From the NCBI GenBank assembly GCA_009599575.1, contig VWND01000007.1:1559501-1623500 (forward strand): 64,000 bases of DNA, in the 5' to 3' direction. Origin of the DNA: Blumeriella jaapii (taxonomy: Eukaryota > Ascomycota > Leotiomycetes > Helotiales > Drepanopezizaceae). The position numbers and the translations under genes were made by a program. Positions 46,903 to 61,807 of this stretch are shown here, one piece after another; position 1 is the first letter of the stretch, and every line of letters starts with the position of its first letter. The notes beneath the pieces are model-generated. The model was not told the origin of the DNA and did no database searches. It saw nothing but the letters and a program-made list of their open reading frames with translations.

Positions 46903-48566
46903 GCTGTTGGAAATGGGAGTTCTATGATACCCTTGCGTGTGTGCGGCTTAGTAAAGAACACCTAGGTACAGAGCAGAGTTACGTTTCATGGCATATGCAG
47001 TTCGCTGGCGCTTTTCTCGCCTCAGATCTTGTACTCGGTGGGTACGTCGCTGACTCTGGACTGTAGGACGGGCACGCGATGGATCGCAGGGTAAGGCAGG
47101 GAATGTAGGCATCGCAACGATACGGCTCGTACCCAGGGACTTCCCGTGAGCCGGCACGTCGCGTGCCTCTTCGCAGGAGTTCGCATCGCCAGAATGTTGT
47201 ACGGCAGACATGTGATACGAGACGTGGGATTTGCAGGCCTGCATAGCGGCATCGAGATTCTGAAGGCATCTACTTCTTCGTCTTCCTCATTGGGATCGAC
47301 GTGTAATTGCTGTTCCTGGTTCGGGTGTTACTATTTCGTGACGAGAGAGGTGTTGGGATGGGGTTTGTTGCGCATCACGTGTGTACAGCCGAGCTTGGCT
47401 TCTTCTTGATTCGGAAGTTCCGTTCTTGAGTATTATGGGTACAAGGCATAAGGGTAATTGTTGATCGGTGAATCGTCTGAGCCATGACGGAGGAATGACC
47501 TAGCCGGTTGAGAAAGAAATGAGCATGGATTCGGGCCCGTGGCGGGTATCTGCCTGTCTGCGAAGATCGCGGTGAAATCTGTACCCACTCACGTTAACAC
47601 ACGCCGGCGTGTGGTAAGCCCTGTCGACTTAGTTCTACCTGGGTCGAACTTCTTTACATCATCACGCTGCGTGAAGGGTCGAAACATAGGTTAGCGCCGA
47701 GTAAACAGAGGCTAGGAAAGGAAAACACGAGGATCCCCAAGGGCGTTTTGGCAATGCTAACTTGCAGGAGAGCGTCCCGCAGGAGGACAAAAATTCTGCG
47801 GTAGCGACGCGGCTATATGACTCGATAAACAGCATCTGAGGGGTAACGAGGTAACGCTGGAGTGGGAAAGTGTAAACAGTTCGGGAAACCGAACTAACTC
47901 TGGGGTCGAGTTAATGGAGTCGACGTGGCTGCCATGAGTCGGTTGCAATTCAGGCTGCTTTCGTTTTCTCCGATATCGGGCTGAGCGAGTGAGACAGTGA
48001 TTTGTGACCTATGTACTTGGACGGGAAGACTGCAGAAAGCCACGAAGCGCGAGGCCGGCTTATCAAATCGGGACATCATTTCGTGTGGTAAGAAGCTTCT
48101 TGTAAGAAAGTAATTCCGTCTGGTCTGTTCAGAAAGAACTAGGTTGAGCGAGAAATGGAGTGTTTGAGACTTGTCCTTTGTCATTAAGATTCATCATCCA
48201 TTTATTTGCGACAGTGTATTAGTATGGATATCTTGAAGTCAGGTACTGTAGAGCGTATTCAAATGTAGCACCGTTTGCGGCTAGCCGCTTCGACTTCAGC
48301 TCACGTGCCTCCACGCCATCTAATTTATAGCTTTTCGACAACACCAGATTGGCCCATAGCTATATGTTGTTTGTTTCTAAAGACACTGGCAAAATCCTAA
48401 TCTACTATACAAATGATGGTGGTTTGGACCCTTGACAAACCTCCGACCCCTGTATCTGCGCATCGTACAAGTTGCTGTACTGCAGCAGAGTTCGGTTAGT
48501 GACCTACCCGGTTCGGAGGGTAAAGGTTCAGCTTGGAGTACCAGTTGCGCGAGGGGGGGGTGGTGA

Positions 48567-48590
48567 GGGGGGGGGGGGGGGGGGGGGGGG
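48567..48590 (+). repeat. Poly(G) tract, about 24 bases
   Basis: G run preceded by a second run of eight G (48553-48560) separated by TGGTGA. Confidence 0.85.
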
Positions 48591-51193: not shown

Positions 51194-51596
51194 TTACTGT
51201 TCCTCCGCCTCTCGTTTCCAATCGGCCCTCTTCTCGACCTCGCCATCCTTGACTAGGAACTTGTTATGGGCTCTGTCTTGCCTCTTCTCGACCTCGGCCT
51301 CTGCGAAGTCCTTGACCAAAAATCTAGATATCCAAAGGTTAGCATACCATTTCGAGAATCGTACATATCAAAAAAGTTGGGCAAACTTGCTTGTTGTGAG
51401 CGCGGTCTTGTCTAGTCTCAATTTCCGCCTCGGCGACGAAAGCAGTGTGAGAACGGTCTTGCTATTATCGATACTGTTAGCAGACTGTATTGCGCTACAA
51501 ATTTGCAAGGTTACGAACACGCTCTTGAAGACTGCCCATTGGTACAGCCATGGCCGAGAGAGCAAAGATCGAAGCAAAACACAAAGAGAGCTTCAT
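51194..51596 (-). CDS. Candidate RiPP precursor: signal peptide plus Kex2-bounded repeats
   Basis: Three exons on the minus strand (51596-51519, 51461-51391, 51323-51194) encode 92 aa. Residues 1-17 (MKLSLCFASIFALSAMA) form a classical signal peptide with an A-x-A site. Then follow three related units that all begin QDR: residues 27-43 (QDRSHTAF...EIETR), 44-64 (QDRAHNKFLVKD...EVEKR) and 65-82 (QDRAHNKFLVKDGEVEKR). The tail is ADWKREAEEQ. Units are closed by ER, TR, KR and KR, fitting Kex2 cleavage. Intron 1 is GT..AG. Intron 2 uses a GC donor (AA^GCAAGT) with a GCTAAC branch site and keeps the repeat frame exactly. This plan matches UstA-type precursors of fungal dikaritin RiPPs, and two UstYa-family genes lie 3-5 kb away. 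There is no Tyr in the protein. A secreted Kep-type or pheromone-like peptide is the alternative. Confidence 0.72.
51324..51390 (-). other. GC-AG intron in the precursor gene
   Basis: 67-bp intron with donor GCAAGT, branch-like TGCTAAC and acceptor TATCTAG. It splits a Lys codon inside the second repeat. The third repeat has the same HNKFLVK peptide without an intron, which independently confirms the join. Confidence 0.75.
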
Positions 51597-52580
51597 TTTT
51601 GAGTGTGTCTGGGAAAAACTTGGAGTAATAGAAACAAAGTTGCTTCGAGTTCAAAATTAGCAATACGTTGCTGGGATAGTGCTTATTTTATAAGATGCTC
51701 GGTATCCGCGAGAGCTAGATGATGCCATTGTCTTGCCGCTTGCGGTTTTTCTTGTTCAAGGATCCGGACCGTGATGTTTTCCCCTTTCAGCTCAAGGCGG
51801 AGAACTCTCGCATTGTCGGTTTCACAACTTGAACAACTCGCCTAGTCATCATTGCTTACGTTGAGTTACTGAAGTTGCAGGACTGAATAGACGTGCAGTA
51901 GCTACAGATATTTCATACAAGCGTCATCAACACTCCCGCTCCAATCAAACGTCACAGCGGTATGCCAACTTTACATATTGGCCTCCGTTTTTTTACCCTT
52001 CAGAAGGCACAATGCTTCCGTTCGACATGCACATAAGCATGGACGATCCATGAAATCCGGAGCTTAGAAGAGAAAAAGTCGACCTATCGTTGGCTGTTCT
52101 GCACTTGAACTACGCGGTTGGTATTGATCACAACATCTTACATGACTTTATCAGCACGGCACATGGGCACACGCCCTTGCTAGCATGTCAATTCCGGTGT
52201 AATCACCGAGTGTAAGCAGAGTTTATTGTAACCTACCCCCGCTGATTGTGAGCCTTAGATTTTATGGCTAGATCACAAGCCATTTTGGTGCATTGTACAG
52301 TGCATGCATGCAAGCTAGTCTTTTCGGCAGAAGTGTACACACATCTGTAGGAAGGCTCGAAATGCCCAGCTTTAAACGATCGCATATTCTGTTTCTTCCT
52401 GCCGCTTGCAGTTCGACGTATCTTCTGAGTGCTTCTGTTTGTCAGCACATACAGCTCGATACCAGCTCGCTTACTACTCAAGGCAAAAGCTAAATCACTC
52501 CTTCCGGCTACAAGTGTTCCGTCTCTTTACTCAACCACACAGCTGCACCTCGCATCACATCAGCCTTCCCCCCGCGAACT
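51597..52580. promoter_or_regulatory. Divergent upstream region, precursor / acyltransferase
   Basis: About 1 kb between two divergent start codons; it should carry both promoters. Beyond the TATA box of the precursor I recognise no specific site. Confidence 0.45.
51686..51692 (-). promoter_or_regulatory. TATA box of the precursor gene
   Basis: TATAAAA on the minus strand, about 90 bp upstream of the precursor ATG, inside the near-palindrome CTTATTTTATAAG. Confidence 0.55.
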
Positions 52581-53905
52581 ATGGTTCACAGTCCCTATCA
52601 AAGCCGGCTCTTGGAACTTACCAGACGCGTGCTCAATGACTTGATGCCAATCTATCTCCACCAAGCAACCTCTGACAGCGCTGGCTCAGAAGTCCTGCCT
52701 CGTGCTTCCTTTCTGGATGGTCTCCGAGGATATGCGTCTCTTGTCGTGTTCGTTTCCCACTTTTTCGACCCTTTCCAACCCGCGAAACGTTTTGGATATG
52801 GCTATGGGCAAGGCAATGACTGGCTACTGCAACTCCCCATTATCCGTGTTCTGTATAGTGGCGTCCCAATGGTGTCGATCTTCTTCGTCATATCTGGCTA
52901 CGCATTGTCTTTGAAGCCTCTTTCTCACATACGGACCGAGTCATGGGATCATCTTGCAGATACGATGGCTTCGTCAACCTTTCGCAGAGGCATCCGGCTG
53001 TTCTTGCCAACTCTGGCGACTACGTTTCTTGTCATGGTCAGCGTTCTCCTTGACCTACATGATGCGTCAGATTACGCATCTCTTCCGGGTGTCATTGAAC
53101 CCCGTCCTCGTCCATTTCCAAGAGTTCACGAACAGCTCTACGACTGGTGTCATTTTGTCACTACCGAATTGACGAATCCCTGGCAGTGGCAAGTTCGCGA
53201 CTACGTATACGACTCCCACTTGTGGACGATCCCAATCGAATTCAGAGCCTCCATGATTCTGTTCATGTTCCTTACATGCATCTCTAGATTCCGCCTGCCA
53301 CTTCGACTGGCGCTCGCAAGCGCATTCTGGGCTTACTGCATGTTTACGCAATGTGGCACGTTGCCTTGTTCATTTGCGGCGCGTGCTTTGCCGACCTGTC
53401 ATTTGAGCGTCGGCCGACAGAGTTGAAGCCTTTCAGACACCTCCTTTGTGCACTGCCTTCACTCGCTCTCGGGCTTTATTTACTCTCCTTCCCAATCAGG
53501 AATGGTCCGGAGACTTCCGGCTACATATCACTATCCATGATCACTGCAAACCACACTATTTGGCACACCTTCGGAGCCATGCTGGTTTTGTTCACGCTTG
53601 GCAATTCTGAGGTGCTACAAGGCATGTTCAGCACGCCATTTGCGGCATATCTGGGGAAGATAAGCTATGCACTTTACCTTGTCCACGGCCCTGCGTTGCA
53701 CACCTTTGGCTACGGCACAGTTTCGAGTATCTGGAGTGTGTTTGGCAAGGATACTTGGATCCAGTATCAGGGCGGCTTGCTTCTGGGATTCCTGCTTGTG
53801 GGACCTGTGGTTTTATGGTGGGCAGATATCTTCGAGAGACTAGTGGATCGACCCAGCGTCGAGTTGGCCAGATGGTTGTATCTTAAAGGCGTTGCCAGAA
53901 ATTGA
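52581..53905 (+). pseudogene. Acyltransferase 3 family membrane protein with one frame break
   Basis: Polytopic membrane acyltransferase of the acyltransferase-3 family (often O-acylation of sugars or metabolites). The N-terminal part (52581 to about 53350) has the family start FLDGLRGYASLVVFVSHF with the conserved His, SIFFVISGYALS, and several membrane helices. It reaches ASAFWAYCMFT and then loses frame. From about 53351 the protein continues one frame over: WHVALFICGACFADL and KISYALYLVHGP, then GLLLGFLLVGPVVLWWADIF, to a stop at 53905. The break is a single missing base near 53350, in no homopolymer and with no usable intron. Both halves are otherwise fully open. It is either recently disabled or a sequence error; it lies between the precursor and UstYa genes. 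Confidence 0.8.
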
Positions 53906-54267
53906 AGTCGATGTAGTGTTTTGGTCAGCAAAGATTCCCTTCAGCGAGCAACTGCCTTAGGTTAGCTTTACCATGGATTATAGCTTTAATCGTGTTCTAA
54001 CTCTTAGGGGCATTCTTATTGCATAAGCTTCCGCACAGTGGCGCTGTCATTCATTATTCAGCATAGAGATATGGGCAATGGGGCTGGTTGAATGAAGTAA
54101 GCGAGCTGAAGACATCCACGAATGCAGCTTATGCCGGTGCATCCTCTCCGACCAGTAGGTGACATGCGAAACTCGAGTTATCACATTTTGCTCACCGCTT
54201 TTACTTGAAATTGTTCGAGGAAAATAGCTTTAGTATTTTGAAACCGATTTTCAATTATGACGTTCGA
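53906..54267. other. Convergent intergenic region
   Basis: About 360 bp of presumed 3' UTRs between the acyltransferase and the first UstYa-type gene. Nothing else seen. Confidence 0.5.
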
Positions 54268-55206
54268 CTATGGGCCCGGATCCTTGTGCTGCTCCGTCCA
54301 TCGCTTGAGAGCATCGAAATCGACACACTGGTGCTCAACGCCCCAGCCGCTTGAGCCTTGCTCTCTAGGCGTAACGCCATCCGCTTCCAAAAATGCCTCC
54401 ATGGTCGCATCTCCAGAACACATCAAGCTCTGGCGGATGTAGTCGAAGCAGTGTGCAACATGGCCCGACAGCTCTTTGTATGCCGGGTGTCCGGGCAGAT
54501 TTACTGGCCCGTCCAGGATGTCAACCCCGTCCTTGAGAACTGCATACCAGGCACCTCGGACGATTCTCCTACGTCGTGCGTTAGTTGCTTTGGTGGGAGT
54601 AGATCAAGGCTTTGAACGTACAGGCAATGCAATTGATGGAAAACCGCAACGGCGTAGACTTGACTTCCTTCAGTCTGTCCGTTTAACGAGGGAGGAAGTC
54701 CATGACTTTTGGGGGCTTCAATCATCACGAATCCTAGCGAACAGGTCTGAGAAACTTTATAAAGTATCCGGAGGGAGCTCAATATCTTACTTGAATGCAT
54801 CTCTGCCCATGCCTCGTCACTCTCTTTGGTCTGGTTCCAAGGGTTAAAGCGTTCATCCGGCATAAACTTTTGGGAAGTTTTCTGTTCGGTGATGCCTGTA
54901 CAACATTCAGAAATCAGCTTTCGGTCTATGTTGAGACTGTCAACACGAAGAGGACTTACTCGGGGGGACTACGTTTCGAGGAGAGAGAATCTGACTCCAT
55001 AACCATATCCCCAGGACGATCGATGTCAAAATCCAAAAAGTTACTGTGAAGCATATCTGCCACGGCCTCTTGGAACAATATCTGTCTTGGCGCCTCTGGC
55101 ATCTTTGGCATGGCTCTGAGGGTATATCATGACCGTCTTTTTCTGGGTCTTCAGGTGTTGCCACGTCCAGACTGACCGTAGAAATCCTATGGTACTGTTG
55201 CTCCAT
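54268..55206 (-). CDS. UstYa family (DUF3328) oxidase-like protein, copy 1
   Basis: Four exons on the minus strand (55206-54960, 54895-54791, 54733-54622, 54568-54268) give 254 aa, a usual length for the family. ATG 55206 starts MEQQYHRISTVSL. One transmembrane helix lies at about 51-70 (ICFTVTFWILTSIVLGIWLW). The luminal part has DERFNPWNQTKESDEAW. Both family metal-binding-type motifs are present: HQLHC at 150-154 and HVAHC at 191-195, the latter in HVAHCFDYIRQSLMCSGDAT. UstYa proteins carry out oxidative cyclisation or other oxidation of RiPP core peptides, and occur in some other metabolite clusters. The gene is divergent from copy 2. Confidence 0.88.
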
Positions 55207-55656
55207 TGCGAATGAGACTGGGGAGCGCAAGGTCCAGATTGAAGCTGGGTTTAGCTATATCTAACGGCGTGCGAGTGTAAGGTTGTAGGAGGTTTTTGAG
55301 CAGTATACAAACGCGCGCCATCACTTCAGATGATAACGTGGTGATTTTATTGCCCTTTTGGGAAAGAGCACCGAATCACTTAGACTCTCCGCATCCGGAA
55401 AGTTGTACGAGTTCTTAGTCGACCTCGTCAGCTTTGTAAACCTCTTGCATTCTGGCCTGTTCAATGAGCCGTCTGCTGGTCCTCGGCTAATCGTCATACC
55501 TATGCAGATGTCAGCACCTCGTCTTGAATAGCTTCATGGAACGCCACCACACAGACGCCGGTAATCACTCCCCGCGGTTTTTCAGTTGAACTTCTCAACT
55601 CCCCATTCGGATTCTTCCTTCAAGTGTAATACTATCCAAGTCTCAAGTATCGCAAG
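55207..55656. promoter_or_regulatory. Bidirectional promoter between the two UstYa-type genes
   Basis: 450 bp between two divergent start codons, so the pair can be co-regulated from here. No binding site recognised with confidence. Confidence 0.55.
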
Positions 55657-56615
55657 ATGTCTGAGCAAGATAGCGAGGAGAACACCTCCTTCCTCGATCA
55701 CGAAAAATGGCATTCGACGCGCGCTGGCAACGAAGAGAAGAGCACTCTGCTGTCACGGATGTTTCGGAAGAATATCACTTGGGCGGTGCTTGGATGTCTC
55801 TTCTCCTCTCTCTTTTTTGCAGTCCTCCAGTTGAGACACGGACACGGATGGCTCGCTTCCACAAGGCCACAACTGATACCAGGCGAGAGTTTCTGGCCGG
55901 ACAGTAAGTGAAGTCTCCTATTCCAGAAGCGCAAGCTGACCGAGTAAAGTTCCAGAATACACAAGGGTTTTTGTAGACGACGAGGACTGGAAAGATACGG
56001 GCGTGGTAGGCGACGTGCTATGGAATGAACTCCTCCCCGGTAATTGGGGTGGCCTCCGTCCTCGATGGGTTTTACTGACATTGTGCAGTTGGCGGAGGCT
56101 ATGTTCCAATTCCGTACCCGCGACGCTACAATCTGCCGGAAAGCGCTCCTTTCGAGCGGAGCCCAGATGAAGCTGAAGTCTATGCGACATCCAGTGTACA
56201 CCAATTACACTGTTTGGTAAGAGATATACCATGGAAGTTCAGAGAACTATGCAAAGACTAAACCATTTGGGAAGGCGACGCTTCGAGAAACGCTGAAGTC
56301 GTACGGCGCAGGCGAGACACCGAGATACGGAGGCAAACACCCTTACCATTGTCTAAACTACTGTACGTGACGCTCTGAGGAAACTGGTCTTCTTTGAATG
56401 ATCCGCGTAATAACGGGATTTTTGTAGTAAGACAGGGCGTTCTATGCGCAGCAGACACGACACTTGAATACGGACACCCGGTGTGGAACGAGGAGAAACA
56501 ATGGATGGAGTATGACTTTAGCGGGATTGGCGCTATACATCAATGTAGAGATTGGAATACGGTCAAGGATTTTATGTTGAAGCATCGTGCTTCGAATGAG
56601 AGTGGTATTGCATAG
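55657..56615 (+). CDS. UstYa family (DUF3328) oxidase-like protein, copy 2
   Basis: Five exons (55657-55903, 55950-56039, 56089-56216, 56275-56362, 56428-56615) give 246 aa with exact phases. MSEQDSEENTSFL is followed by one membrane helix at about 39-59 (NITWAVLGCLFSSLFFAVLQ). The luminal part includes YPRRYNLPESAPFERSPDE and then VYATSSVHQLHCL (HQLHC at 150-154). The second motif is HPYHC at 177-181, in HPYHCLNYLRQGVLCAADTT. The two UstYa proteins share the motif positions but little other sequence, so they are old paralogues, as in ustiloxin-type clusters that need a UstYa/UstYb pair. A conserved TLEYGHPVWNE stretch follows the second motif. Confidence 0.88.
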
Positions 56616-58098
56616 TTCTGTGGTGGTCAGTGAATCGGGCAGAGTAGACAGCTCCCAGTTTTGTGTATATCCAGTGTGCTAGCCGAGAACAATCCTCGTA
56701 ATTTTCATCTCCAGGGACGGACTTCTTCGATTTGAAATCTTGTCCCCGGGCATAAGACCTAAACGATTCTTCGCCAAGACATAGATACAGCAAGTCCAAA
56801 ATCCATCAAGGAAATTTGCTCTTCCAACTGAATCGCAGTTTGCTTCGAAAGGCCTCCCGCAACTGCAGGTTTGGCAAATTTACGACGCGTATCGACCGCC
56901 CTCGAGCATCATTTGAGAAACTTAAACGGTTTTCAAGAACGATTATAAGAATATGTTAATTCATATAGGAACTCGTGGGTGAGGAAAAAGCACTTGACAT
57001 GTGGAATAAGCAGGGTTAGGTCCTACAGTGGTACAGTACTGTACATGCGTCAGATTCTGATGCGTAGGTAGTTGTACATGGGAGTCTTCAAGCTGGCGCA
57101 ACCGAGCGTCACCTCACAAATTCCATGGAGAACCATCTCGCCTGTACTGTGGGAGAAAGATTCAAATAGCAGACAATTTCCACACCTTCTTTTTACAACT
57201 GCTTTCTTGAGGGTCTTTTGTATGTAAAAATCCCCAGCTTAGCACGTCTCCAATGCCCTACGGGAGGCTTGAGGTTGCGCCGTTCCACTGCCCCTCCAGA
57301 CGTTAAACAATATCACCATCATCATTCATGCTGGCGTATCCTACCGGGGCATTTACATGACTGGACCTATTGGCAAAACTGGCAGATATTCATACGTAGA
57401 CATAGACTCGGTCGGAGTTTGTTTAGGAAACGGAAGAGTTGCTTTTAATGCCGCATGAGAAATTGATGATAGACTCGGATATTGAGCCGTTTTTCGTTCT
57501 TGTCTTTTAAAGGGGAAAAACACTTTGTTCAATAGAGCGTTGGCAATTAGGGTGACGAAGGCAACTAAATTGGAAGATGAATTTATACATAGATGAGCAT
57601 ATAACGAGATGTAACTCAAAAATCCATGCCATAGCGCGGATGCAAGAGTTTAACGCCAATGCGGCCAGTATCTAAGGTGCAGCGGCTCCTGCTTGTTATT
57701 GCCCTACACCCGCCTACATTGGACCGATGACAATGATTGCTTCCACACTATGGATCCATGAACTGCAAAGGAAATCGTATGCTGTGGCGATCCTGCATTT
57801 CAATCAATTAAAGCTTGCCTCTTGCCTTGGGCTGAGCTTCGGTATCAAATCCTGTCGCACTTTATTCTCACGCCCCGGCCCGAGCAGAATTTTCACAGGA
57901 AAGGCGGACCTTCCAAGCACAAAGTGTGTTCCTTTTGACAAGTTGAATCGAGAATACCAGAGAGGGTGGGCGTCTGCATTGCTTTTGTGGACCAACGCTC
58001 ATTGAATTGATATCTGTCAATAAGGTAGGCAGTTACTCTTCGTGAGAATGTCAAAGGTCTGGTGCAGTTGAAAAGAAGTTTGTGGGAGATTAGGGCTA
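56616..58098. other. Intergenic region, no gene recognised
   Basis: About 1.5 kb with one GTACAGTACTGTAC cluster near 57032 and no supported gene. Confidence 0.5.
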
Positions 58099-58208
58099 AT
58101 AGTGGGCTGCCTTCCCACATTTATTCTGCGGGCACTCGAATAATGTGGGGGAAAGCAAGTGTCCCACTGCATCCAAGTGTCCCATCTCAGTTCATGATTT
58201 TTTACGAT
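58099..58208 (+). repeat. Left terminal inverted repeat
   Basis: 110 bp, identical to the reverse complement of the right end. Confidence 0.93.
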
Positions 58209-59348
58209 CGCATTTTATATTAAAACACCATCAACGCCAGATATTTAATTACACTAAGTTAAATTATAATAAAAACAAGCAGTTATTTTCAGATTTTGAA
58301 TTAAAAAGTTAAATTTTATTAATAGAAACTAATTTAAATAAGTGATTTGTACGCATTTTCAATTTTTTCTTCGCTTTTTCGCTTTTAGAAAGCCTATTTA
58401 CATTTGTTTGCAATTAAAATATTATATATAATAATTCAGATTAACTTTTTTAATCGGTTATAAGCTATTCGATAATTATAAAAGCTTTATTAAGCTCGCG
58501 TTTTATTATATATCAAGATTTTCGGCCAAAAAAATGCAATTTATTATTTTTAATACGATTTTTTTTGGTTTTACAGCTTTATTGCTTTTACAATTTAAAA
58601 TCCAAGGCTCGTAAGCAGCTTCTTTTACTTATTATACGCTTAAGCAAAAGCTTTTCGCAAAACTAACGGTGTTTTTTTACCTTTTGCCTTTTGTTTTTTA
58701 TTTTTCGAATATAAATATTATACCGATATTTAAAAGCTGAAAAGCATATATAAAGTAGCTAGAAAGCTAAAGAAAATATAAGGTTTATTTAGTTTTAATA
58801 AAAGTATATTGTATTTATACGATTCGTAGCCGTTTAATTAATACAATTTCTGATTGGAAATACGTAAAAAAACGATTTAAATTACTTTCACTTAATCAAA
58901 AATGAATGTTCCGACGTAAAATTTAATATAATTTCTATAAATTCTATTCGAATGCAAGCTAAACTTACTTCTCTTCAGTTTATTATAATAAAATAACTGG
59001 CGTTGGAAGTATTTTAATTTAAAATGCGATTATAAAAAATAACAAGTTAAAACAAAACATTTCGTTTCGTAACTTTTAATTAATAAAAGTAGAACTTTTA
59101 ACTTATAATTTAATAATAGCTTTCTGTTTTTATTATTTATCAATTTATTATAATTAAATATCTGGCGTTGATAATGTTTTTATACAAAATGCGATAATTA
59201 AAAATAGAAACTTCAACGAAAATATATAATTTAACAACTTTTAATTAATAAAAATGAAATTTTTATTTTAAAATCTAAAAATAGCTTCCAGTTTTTATTA
59301 CCTTTCAATTTGGCGTAATTAAATAATAGTGTTTTAATATGAAATGCT

Positions 59349-59458
59349 ATCGTAAAAAATCATGAACTGAGATGGGACACTTGGATGCAGTGGGACACTT
59401 GCTTTCCCCCACATTATTCGAGTGCCCGCAGAATAAATGTGGGAAGGCAGCCCACTAT
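59349..59458 (-). repeat. Right terminal inverted repeat
   Basis: 110 bp, identical in inverted orientation to the left end. Confidence 0.93.
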
Positions 59459-59683
59459 TAAGCGTGAGGGATAATGGAAGTTGTACCCTAATGTGCGACC
59501 CCCATCTTCGATGAATTGTCGAATTGACGTATTCACAGTAACCTCATCGTTTTGCGGGAGCGTTGTATTAAGGGAAAATAGTGAGATTGATCGCTGCCTG
59601 GAAGGGAGGCGGTGGTAGCTTTGTCTCGGAGATCAGGCCGTGAATATTTTTGTCATGGTCATCTAACAAAGTACCACCACTTT

Positions 59684-59837
59684 CTTCGCCTTCGGGCATT
59701 TGGTCGTAAGTTTCATTGCTCCGCTGGTCAAGCGGTACGATACTAACCTTCATCAGAATTTGAAACGATACAGAGAAGATTAGCATGGCCCCTGCACTAA
59801 GGATGACACGCTCAATCAAAGAGAAGCTACCAATTTT
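59684..59837 (+). ncRNA. U6 spliceosomal snRNA with an internal spliceosomal intron
   Basis: Catalytic snRNA of the spliceosome. The unmistakable core ACAGAGAAGATTAGCATGGC then CCCTGCACTAAGGATGACACGC lies at 59770-59811. The 5' hairpin (GCC-TTCG-GGC at 59688-59697) and GCATTTGGTC lie upstream, but separated from AATTTGAAACGATACAGAG by 51 bp (59706-59756). That insert has a perfect mRNA-type intron form: GTAAGT donor, TACTAAC branch site at 59741-59747 and CAG acceptor. Intron-bearing U6 genes are known in S. pombe and some other fungi. The 5' end is estimated from the hairpin. The gene starts about 225 bp after the transposon end. Confidence 0.92.
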
Positions 59838-59840
59838 TTT
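59834..59840 (+). terminator. RNA polymerase III terminator of U6
   Basis: Seven T directly after the U6 3' end (GAAGCTACCAA), the standard Pol III stop signal. Confidence 0.85.
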
Positions 59841-61807
59841 GCACTTTTTTCTATGAAATCGGATTGGATTTTGGGTCCGCCATCTTTTTTGCATTTTTGC
59901 TCTCGGGGCTGAGCGGTGGCGCTAAGCACATTTTGTTTGCCCTGGCGCTTTGTTAAAATAAAGGTTCTCCGGTCGGCTAGGCGACACGCCAAACGCGTCC
60001 CCAACATTACTTTATTTACCTTACATCTACTACAAAATCTATTTATTTACTGGTGCTTTGAATGTCGCGAAACAATTCACGAAGCATCGTTATCTAATGA
60101 TCAGCTAGATAATTTTGCTGGGTGCAAGACGATGATAGCCTCATTCATTACTATAACCCGGGCTTCCAGGAAAGATCAAGTTTGCCATTACACAAAATCC
60201 TATCACCTCCCCACCTATTTGGCTTTAAAATCCCAGATCGTGGCTTCGCAGACTGTTTGTTCCTTTTCCACAGATGGCAGATATTTCTTCTGCGAATCCA
60301 GGCCTCCGGTTGCAATAATTGATACACGCCGCATCTGCGGTCGTAGTTGTTTACTTCGTTACAAAGCGCCAAGCCCTGACCGACGATATGACTTGAGGGA
60401 AACGTATGTCAAAAACCTGGACCCCATGACACGATTCCACCCCACACCATTTAGGTTGGTTAAATCAAAGAACTACCGAAGAATCAAATAGAGAATCTTG
60501 GGACAGCTCTTTCACCGCATATACTATACCTACCTACCTCCCTAACTACATCGACTCCGAAGTCAATCTTACATACATACAGAGGGAGAGTGAGCTGTCG
60601 GAAAGCGACCTTATCGTGTGCGAAAGCAGCAGAGTTACCGACAAACCCATTGGTGTATTAACTCTACAAAGAGGTCGAGGTCCGTCCGCTGCGGAAGTAC
60701 TGGCTTTCGACTGCTGCCTCTCGAGGCCTTCTCACTGTTTCTAGGCTTACCGAAAAAGCTACAGAATCTCGAAGCTAGATATGGAGCATCGCAACAGCTC
60801 AAACTGCCTGAATGCCTTGGGACGCGTTTCTTAATTTAGGAAATTTTAATCAGTTAATAGGAACCGGCCGCCAACTAGCACCAGCGTACGATCCTGCTCG
60901 GTACATTACATGAATTACGGGCTTGTACACATGGGTGAAAAAGTACATGATTTGTTTCGATCCTTTCAGAGACGCAATGCCTGTTATTCAAGGCTGGCGT
61001 AACACATCTTGACCTTCGCCCAGTCGATTGTAATGCTCTATCTACAGTGCTAAAAGCCACAATCTGCACGCTTCCAAGTGATTGCTCTGTCGGGCTGGAA
61101 GAATGCCTAACTTACACTACCTTCCCTGGGGCTTACTGCGAGTTGGCGATAGGACCGTTTCCAGAAAGGAACTTGTTTTCTTATAATAGTTTCTTTTCCT
61201 CGTTTACAGATTTGTTACCGGTCAAAGCTCCTTACGAGAGGCCTACTTCCTTGACTTGAGCTATATTCAAGCCTTTCTGAATCCTATAAAGTATCCATGT
61301 TTTAAGTGCATGCTACAAGTGCATGCCCTCTTCGGCATTTCACTTTCATTTCAAGTGAATGCAAATTCCATGGTTCCGCCCTACTCGAGCATCCTATCCA
61401 TGTTGCAAGTCACGTGTGTTTTGCCTCACACGACCAGCTGCCACAGCTGGTAGAGGTTGCGTGGATTTGACTCAAATTAAGGCAATATGCAGACAGAACT
61501 CCTGGCTGCAAGAGTGTTATGTAATAAGTGATGCAATTTCAACGTGTTCATCTAGGAGTGCATACGTGCAAGGACGCTCTGAGTCGAGACATTCACATGT
61601 TGGCCTTAGAAATGTTGTGCTGAACACAAAATGTCTCATTCATGATTCTGCAAGGACCCGGCCGAGGTTACAGTTGTCTTTCTGATCTGCTGTCATTTAA
61701 TCTTTCGTAATTCGTCGATCAGCTCGTAGGGCAATAACTACCAGTACCGCAGTGTCGAAACAGCATTTTCACAAAATTACTGTTGTTTGCATTTCAACGC
61801 TACCAAT
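59841..61807. other. Intergenic region, no gene recognised
   Basis: About 2 kb with only short frames and no domain or RNA signal I can support. Confidence 0.45.

Follow-up and report, generated by a model that had tools for sequence, protein, structure and literature searches.

A compact locus in Blumeriella jaapii as a probable dikaritin-type RiPP cluster with a tyrosine-free repeat precursor

A compact locus of Blumeriella jaapii, in which a repeat precursor gene lies close to two UstYa-family genes, probably constitutes a dikaritin-type RiPP cluster, with a cross-linked peptide as its predicted product. The locus is part of a 64,000-nucleotide stretch (the window; C7:1559501-1623500) of a 47.4-Mb genome comprising 91 contigs, and the 5.4-kb span that a first-pass annotation of this DNA had assigned to it (51194-56615) stands as given. 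Its features, in window coordinates, are listed below.

51194-51596, minus strand: precursor gene, 92 aa, three exons assigned by inspection (51519-51596, 51391-51461 and 51194-51323, the last including the stop)
51462-51518, minus strand: precursor intron 1, GT-AG, 57 nt
51324-51390, minus strand: precursor intron 2, GC-AG, donor GCAAGT, 67 nt, splitting unit 2
52581-53905, plus strand: acyltransferase-3 gene, PF01757, in two frames
54268-55206, minus strand: UstYa1, 254 aa, HQLHC and HVAHC, four exons with introns assigned by inspection (54960-55206, 54791-54895, 54622-54733 and 54268-54568)
55207-55656: intergenic region of the divergent UstYa1 and UstYa2, 450 bp, genes head to head, from the gene models
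55657-56615, plus strand: UstYa2, 244 aa, HQLHC and HPYHC, five exons with introns assigned by inspection (55657-55903, 55956-56039, 56089-56216, 56275-56362 and 56428-56615)

The spliced precursor runs from a hydrophobic N-terminus through QDRSHTAFVAEAEIETR, QDRAHNKFLVKDFAEAEVEKR and QDRAHNKFLVKDGEVEKR to the tail ADWKREAEEQ. Hydropathy peaks at 2.4 across residues 5-13, and AMA stands ahead of the likely cut, pointing to a predicted signal peptide. The three QDRxHxxF units that the first-pass annotation had described in a predicted secreted precursor are all present in this 92-aa protein, starting at residues 27, 44 and 65, and when residues 21-92 were shuffled 200,000 times, no shuffle contained two or more copies of the motif. 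The units, with acidic spacers between them, measure 17, 21 and 18 residues, lengths consistent with an imperfect tandem repeat of at least 10 residues. Upstream, TATAAAATA forms a TATA box 96 bp from the precursor ATG, and in both introns a branch-like CTAAC starts 19 nt before the end. In one search, the precursor exons matched their own genome at this locus alone.

Comparison of units 2 and 3 revealed nine base differences in their first twelve codons, all of them silent, leaving the common peptide QDRAHNKFLVKD; the EVEKR tails of the units are identical in DNA (15/15 bases). Simulated placements of nine changes left the peptide unchanged in 0 of 300,000 cases. Because these units diverge only silently, the twelve-residue QDRAHNKFLVKD appears to be held by selection on the peptide, as judged from one unit pair in one genome. 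The same divergence supports the GC-AG splice of intron 2, which was picked by inspection so that units 2 and 3 stay in register, because the frame in which the silent changes fall crosses that intron.

These observations bear directly on whether the precursor might be a chance open frame and not a gene. The single GC-AG splice would fit such an origin, as would the empty homologue search: among 5.8 billion proteins, a search by exact five-residue words returned no relative of the precursor at E<=1. However, the silent-only divergence of the units, the TATA box, the paired CTAAC sites and the hydrophobic N-terminus make a chance frame exceedingly improbable and mark the precursor as a genuine gene. 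The first-pass label "undescribed" thus holds for the precursor within the scope of that search, but not for the combination of a repeat precursor with UstYa genes, which is already catalogued.

The dibasic-type unit boundaries previously proposed were borne out in part. KR occurs at residues 63, 81 and 86, where it closes unit 2, closes unit 3 and appears once in the tail, but the leader/unit 1 boundary is ER and the unit 1/unit 2 boundary TR, leaving two of the four boundaries without KR. Both ER and TR are poorer Kex2 sites than KR. We infer that the precursor enters the secretory path and that a Kex2-type protease would cut at the three KR sites; because of the poorer sites before and after it, unit 1 may remain joined either to the leader or to its neighbour, unit 2. 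A kexin-type P_proprotein domain was found at one place in the genome, covering 57/86 profile positions. An alpha-pheromone precursor, whose repeat motif in ascomycetes is CxxxGQxCW, was considered and rejected, as the units contain no Cys; the motif matches four other places in the genome, none of them an evident repeat precursor.

The two divergent UstYa-family genes, each with both HxxHC motifs, were confirmed as first described, with PF11807 matches above cut-off (E-values 3.2e-33 for UstYa1 and 5.7e-22 for UstYa2). HQLHC is unchanged in 12/12 aligned sequences, comprising the window's two proteins and ten relatives, three of which are without the N-terminus and one of which stops at HQLHC. 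In the search of 5.8 billion proteins, whose dependence on exact five-residue words may let more distant relatives escape, UstYa2 yielded seven matches, five at 51-65% identity (Torrubiella, Cordyceps, Akanthomyces, Rutstroemia and Clarireedia) and two at 34-36% (Athelia and Vararia). UstYa1 yielded 44, three at 50-77% identity (a metagenome protein, Rutstroemia and Akanthomyces) and 41 at 26-43%. Among named organisms, the nearest relatives of both proteins come from ascomycetes, a group that includes Torrubiella, Cordyceps and Clarireedia. In Akanthomyces muscarius, relatives of the pair carry the consecutive locus tags LMH87_004966 and LMH87_004967, the former annotated only as far as the first motif, and the consecutive tags indicate that the pair also lies side by side in Akanthomyces (Hypocreales). 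Rutstroemia (Helotiales) holds relatives of both UstYa1 and UstYa2, in two different strains. In P0001, a modelled UstYa relative, a 41-residue helix lies close to the N-terminus, and we take it, on the basis of the model, for a membrane anchor; a comparison of the model with solved folds gave no match.

Between the precursor and the UstYa genes lies the acyltransferase-3 gene, head to head with the precursor gene across 984 bp. The first-pass assignment is upheld by PF01757, but the frame is broken at 53342-53345: the profile is covered in two stretches (positions 3-166 and 181-321), of which the first ends at 53345 and the second begins at 53342 in a different frame. As the two stretches abut, no intron fits between them. 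Single GT-AG introns of 40-120 nt could open the frame in six ways, but each of the six lies within one PF01757 stretch. From the sequence, the interruption would be either a pseudogene or an assembly error, so that the gene, as sequenced, does not qualify as a functional enzyme of the cluster. Across the genome, PF01757 gives 14 matches, four of which span the greater part of the profile within a single open frame.

The interrupted acyltransferase may be a sign of a decaying locus, that is, a former RiPP cluster left without a working product after loss of the acyltransferase and possibly of expression. The abutting PF01757 stretches in different frames are what such decay would leave behind. 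However, the precursor units diverge only silently, both UstYa genes retain open spliced frames with intact motifs, and the interruption may itself be an assembly error or concern a dispensable enzyme, so that decay of the whole locus is quite unlikely.

A GNAT acetyltransferase (~50.07-50.69 kb, PF00583) and EFR3 flank the locus on the left; on its right, an SDR oxidoreductase is followed by an intradiol (catechol-type) dioxygenase, the two extending from window position 61730 to ~64592 and possibly forming a small aromatic-catabolism pair. An AT-rich stretch right of the cluster (window 58001-60000, GC 0.28-0.37) is without the RIP dinucleotide signature, and a long poly-G run lies left of the cluster (window 48555-48590). 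The absence of a Zn2Cys6 regulator from the window, as first reported, is corroborated: of 63 Zn_clus matches found genome-wide, not one lies inside the window or in the 20 kb to its right, and the nearest on the contig lies ~100 kb away. Tyrosinase gave eight matches in the genome and none on contig C7, so the tyrosinase of the older five-gene dikaritin definition is without a counterpart on this contig. The UstYa pair could in principle tailor a non-ribosomal or other small molecule, since the hydroxylations and chlorinations of the cyclochlorotine cluster have been attributed to DUF3328 proteins (PMC12048977, available part). No synthetase, however, is among the identified neighbours (the GNAT acetyltransferase, EFR3, the SDR and the intradiol dioxygenase), and we regard this possibility as very remote.

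A further alternative is that the precursor releases linear, unmodified Kex2 peptides, acting as signals or as other secreted products, while the UstYa pair is a neighbour with another substrate. Tyr and Trp are absent from all units (the sole Trp of the precursor is in the tail), which agrees with this alternative, and the EAEVEKR spacers of the precursor, which resemble those of mating-factor precursors, speak in the same direction. In the part of Umemura's survey available to us, moreover, 6120 of the 7878 catalogued repeat precursors (KEPs) are without a UstYa neighbour (PMC7329392). The position of the genes argues otherwise. The genome holds four UstYa-family places, this locus included; from this number and the 5.39 KEPs per genome given in the available text of the survey (PMC7329392), only about 0.0046 KEPs are expected by chance within 5 kb of a UstYa place. 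When genes are counted from the precursor, UstYa1 comes second; the survey reports a mean of 3.09, with the maximum at the adjacent gene. The linear-peptide reading is thus unlikely. Around the other three UstYa places (C8:1148321, C3:928196-928946 and C30:302369), ~10 kb on either side was inspected visually in a rough six-frame scan, which a split precursor could evade, and no secreted KR-repeat protein was seen.

A dikaritin-type cluster remains the reading we favour. A repeat precursor and two UstYa genes within 5.4 kb agree with the description of a dikaritin as a KEP precursor cyclised by a UstYa homologue (PMC10512285 and PMC9632046, as far as their available text goes), save that only two of the four boundaries are good kexin sites. 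The dikaritin-like interpretation first offered for this locus therefore stands in its architecture, with the qualifications that the two remaining boundaries are poor and the acyltransferase is interrupted. Counting against it are the small number of units (only three), none with Tyr, the poor Kex2 boundaries ER and TR, the lack of tyrosinase matches on the contig and of Zn2Cys6 matches nearby, and the failure of the modelled UstYa relative to match a solved fold. With no relative of the precursor found, a single genome attests its link to the two UstYa genes.

If the locus is indeed of this type, the two UstYa-family oxidases would cross-link the freed units. The ring taking part is likely that of the Phe in QDRxHxxF, tied to a neighbouring Val or Leu, with His as the second candidate. 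Phe is preferred by analogy, because the units have neither Tyr nor Trp, only His and Phe are kept as aromatic side chains in 3/3 units, and victorin has a Phe-Leu ring. Whether or not the acyltransferase once capped the peptide, its frame is interrupted in this sequence. More tentatively, and with low confidence, the locus might represent a Tyr/Trp-free branch of UstYa RiPPs, in which a dedicated enzyme pair is kept together across Sordariomycetes and Leotiomycetes while the precursor drifts beyond recognition, and in which a His-x-x-Phe-centred cross-link (Phe-Val/Leu or His-Phe) would be one unseen in described dikaritins.

The architecture of a precursor beside UstYa genes is known already, and this locus adds to that class without founding a new one; what is distinctive is the combination of a Tyr-free unit with a UstYa pair common to other fungi. 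Umemura's survey, in its available part, counts 1758 KEPs with UstYa neighbours and 2560 without a homologue among its 7878 (PMC7329392), so that, as a type, a stand-alone precursor next to UstYa genes is to be expected. Against these 1758 predicted UstYa-linked precursors stand five reported dikaritins (PMC10512285, 2022, available part). Being small, and combining two UstYa genes with a Tyr-free unit that appears to be under selection, the locus is tractable for asking which non-Tyr residues UstYa enzymes join, and the UstYa pair offers a handle on sister loci whose precursors escape sequence searches.

Compared with known systems, in the portions of the cited papers available to us, the locus shares with the dikaritins ustiloxin, phomopsin and asperipin-2a a predicted secreted multi-unit precursor near UstYa genes with two HxxHC motifs, and it has the same architecture as the KEP types with UstYa neighbours (PMC7329392). 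Ustiloxin, phomopsin and asperipin-2a are all cross-linked at the ring of Tyr, a residue present in 65.6% of the repeats of UstYa-linked KEPs, and the first two need a tyrosinase gene (PMC7329392), although the older five-gene definition that includes tyrosinase was later relaxed (PMC12048977). In contrast, the units described here are without Tyr, the contig is without a tyrosinase match, and two of the four boundaries are not KR. Victorin, counted as a dikaritin (PMC10512285), is cyclised between a Phe side chain and Leu (PMC9233826), and the proposed Phe ring residue would be common to both systems; Phe is internal in the unit here but C-terminal in victorin. KEP type G-6 includes Rutstroemia, Cordyceps and Torrubiella (PMC7329392), genera that also hold close UstYa2 relatives; G-6 contains Tyr whereas the present precursor units contain none, which sets the two apart as far as the available description of G-6 goes. 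In lichen clan R2 (PMC12048977), as in the locus here, a UstYa homologue is accompanied by a nearby acyl- or acetyltransferase and few other enzymes. The transferases of R2 are GNAT acetyltransferases and, in the available account, the clan has no conserved repeat, whereas the Blumeriella locus pairs an acyltransferase-3 gene with a repeat precursor.
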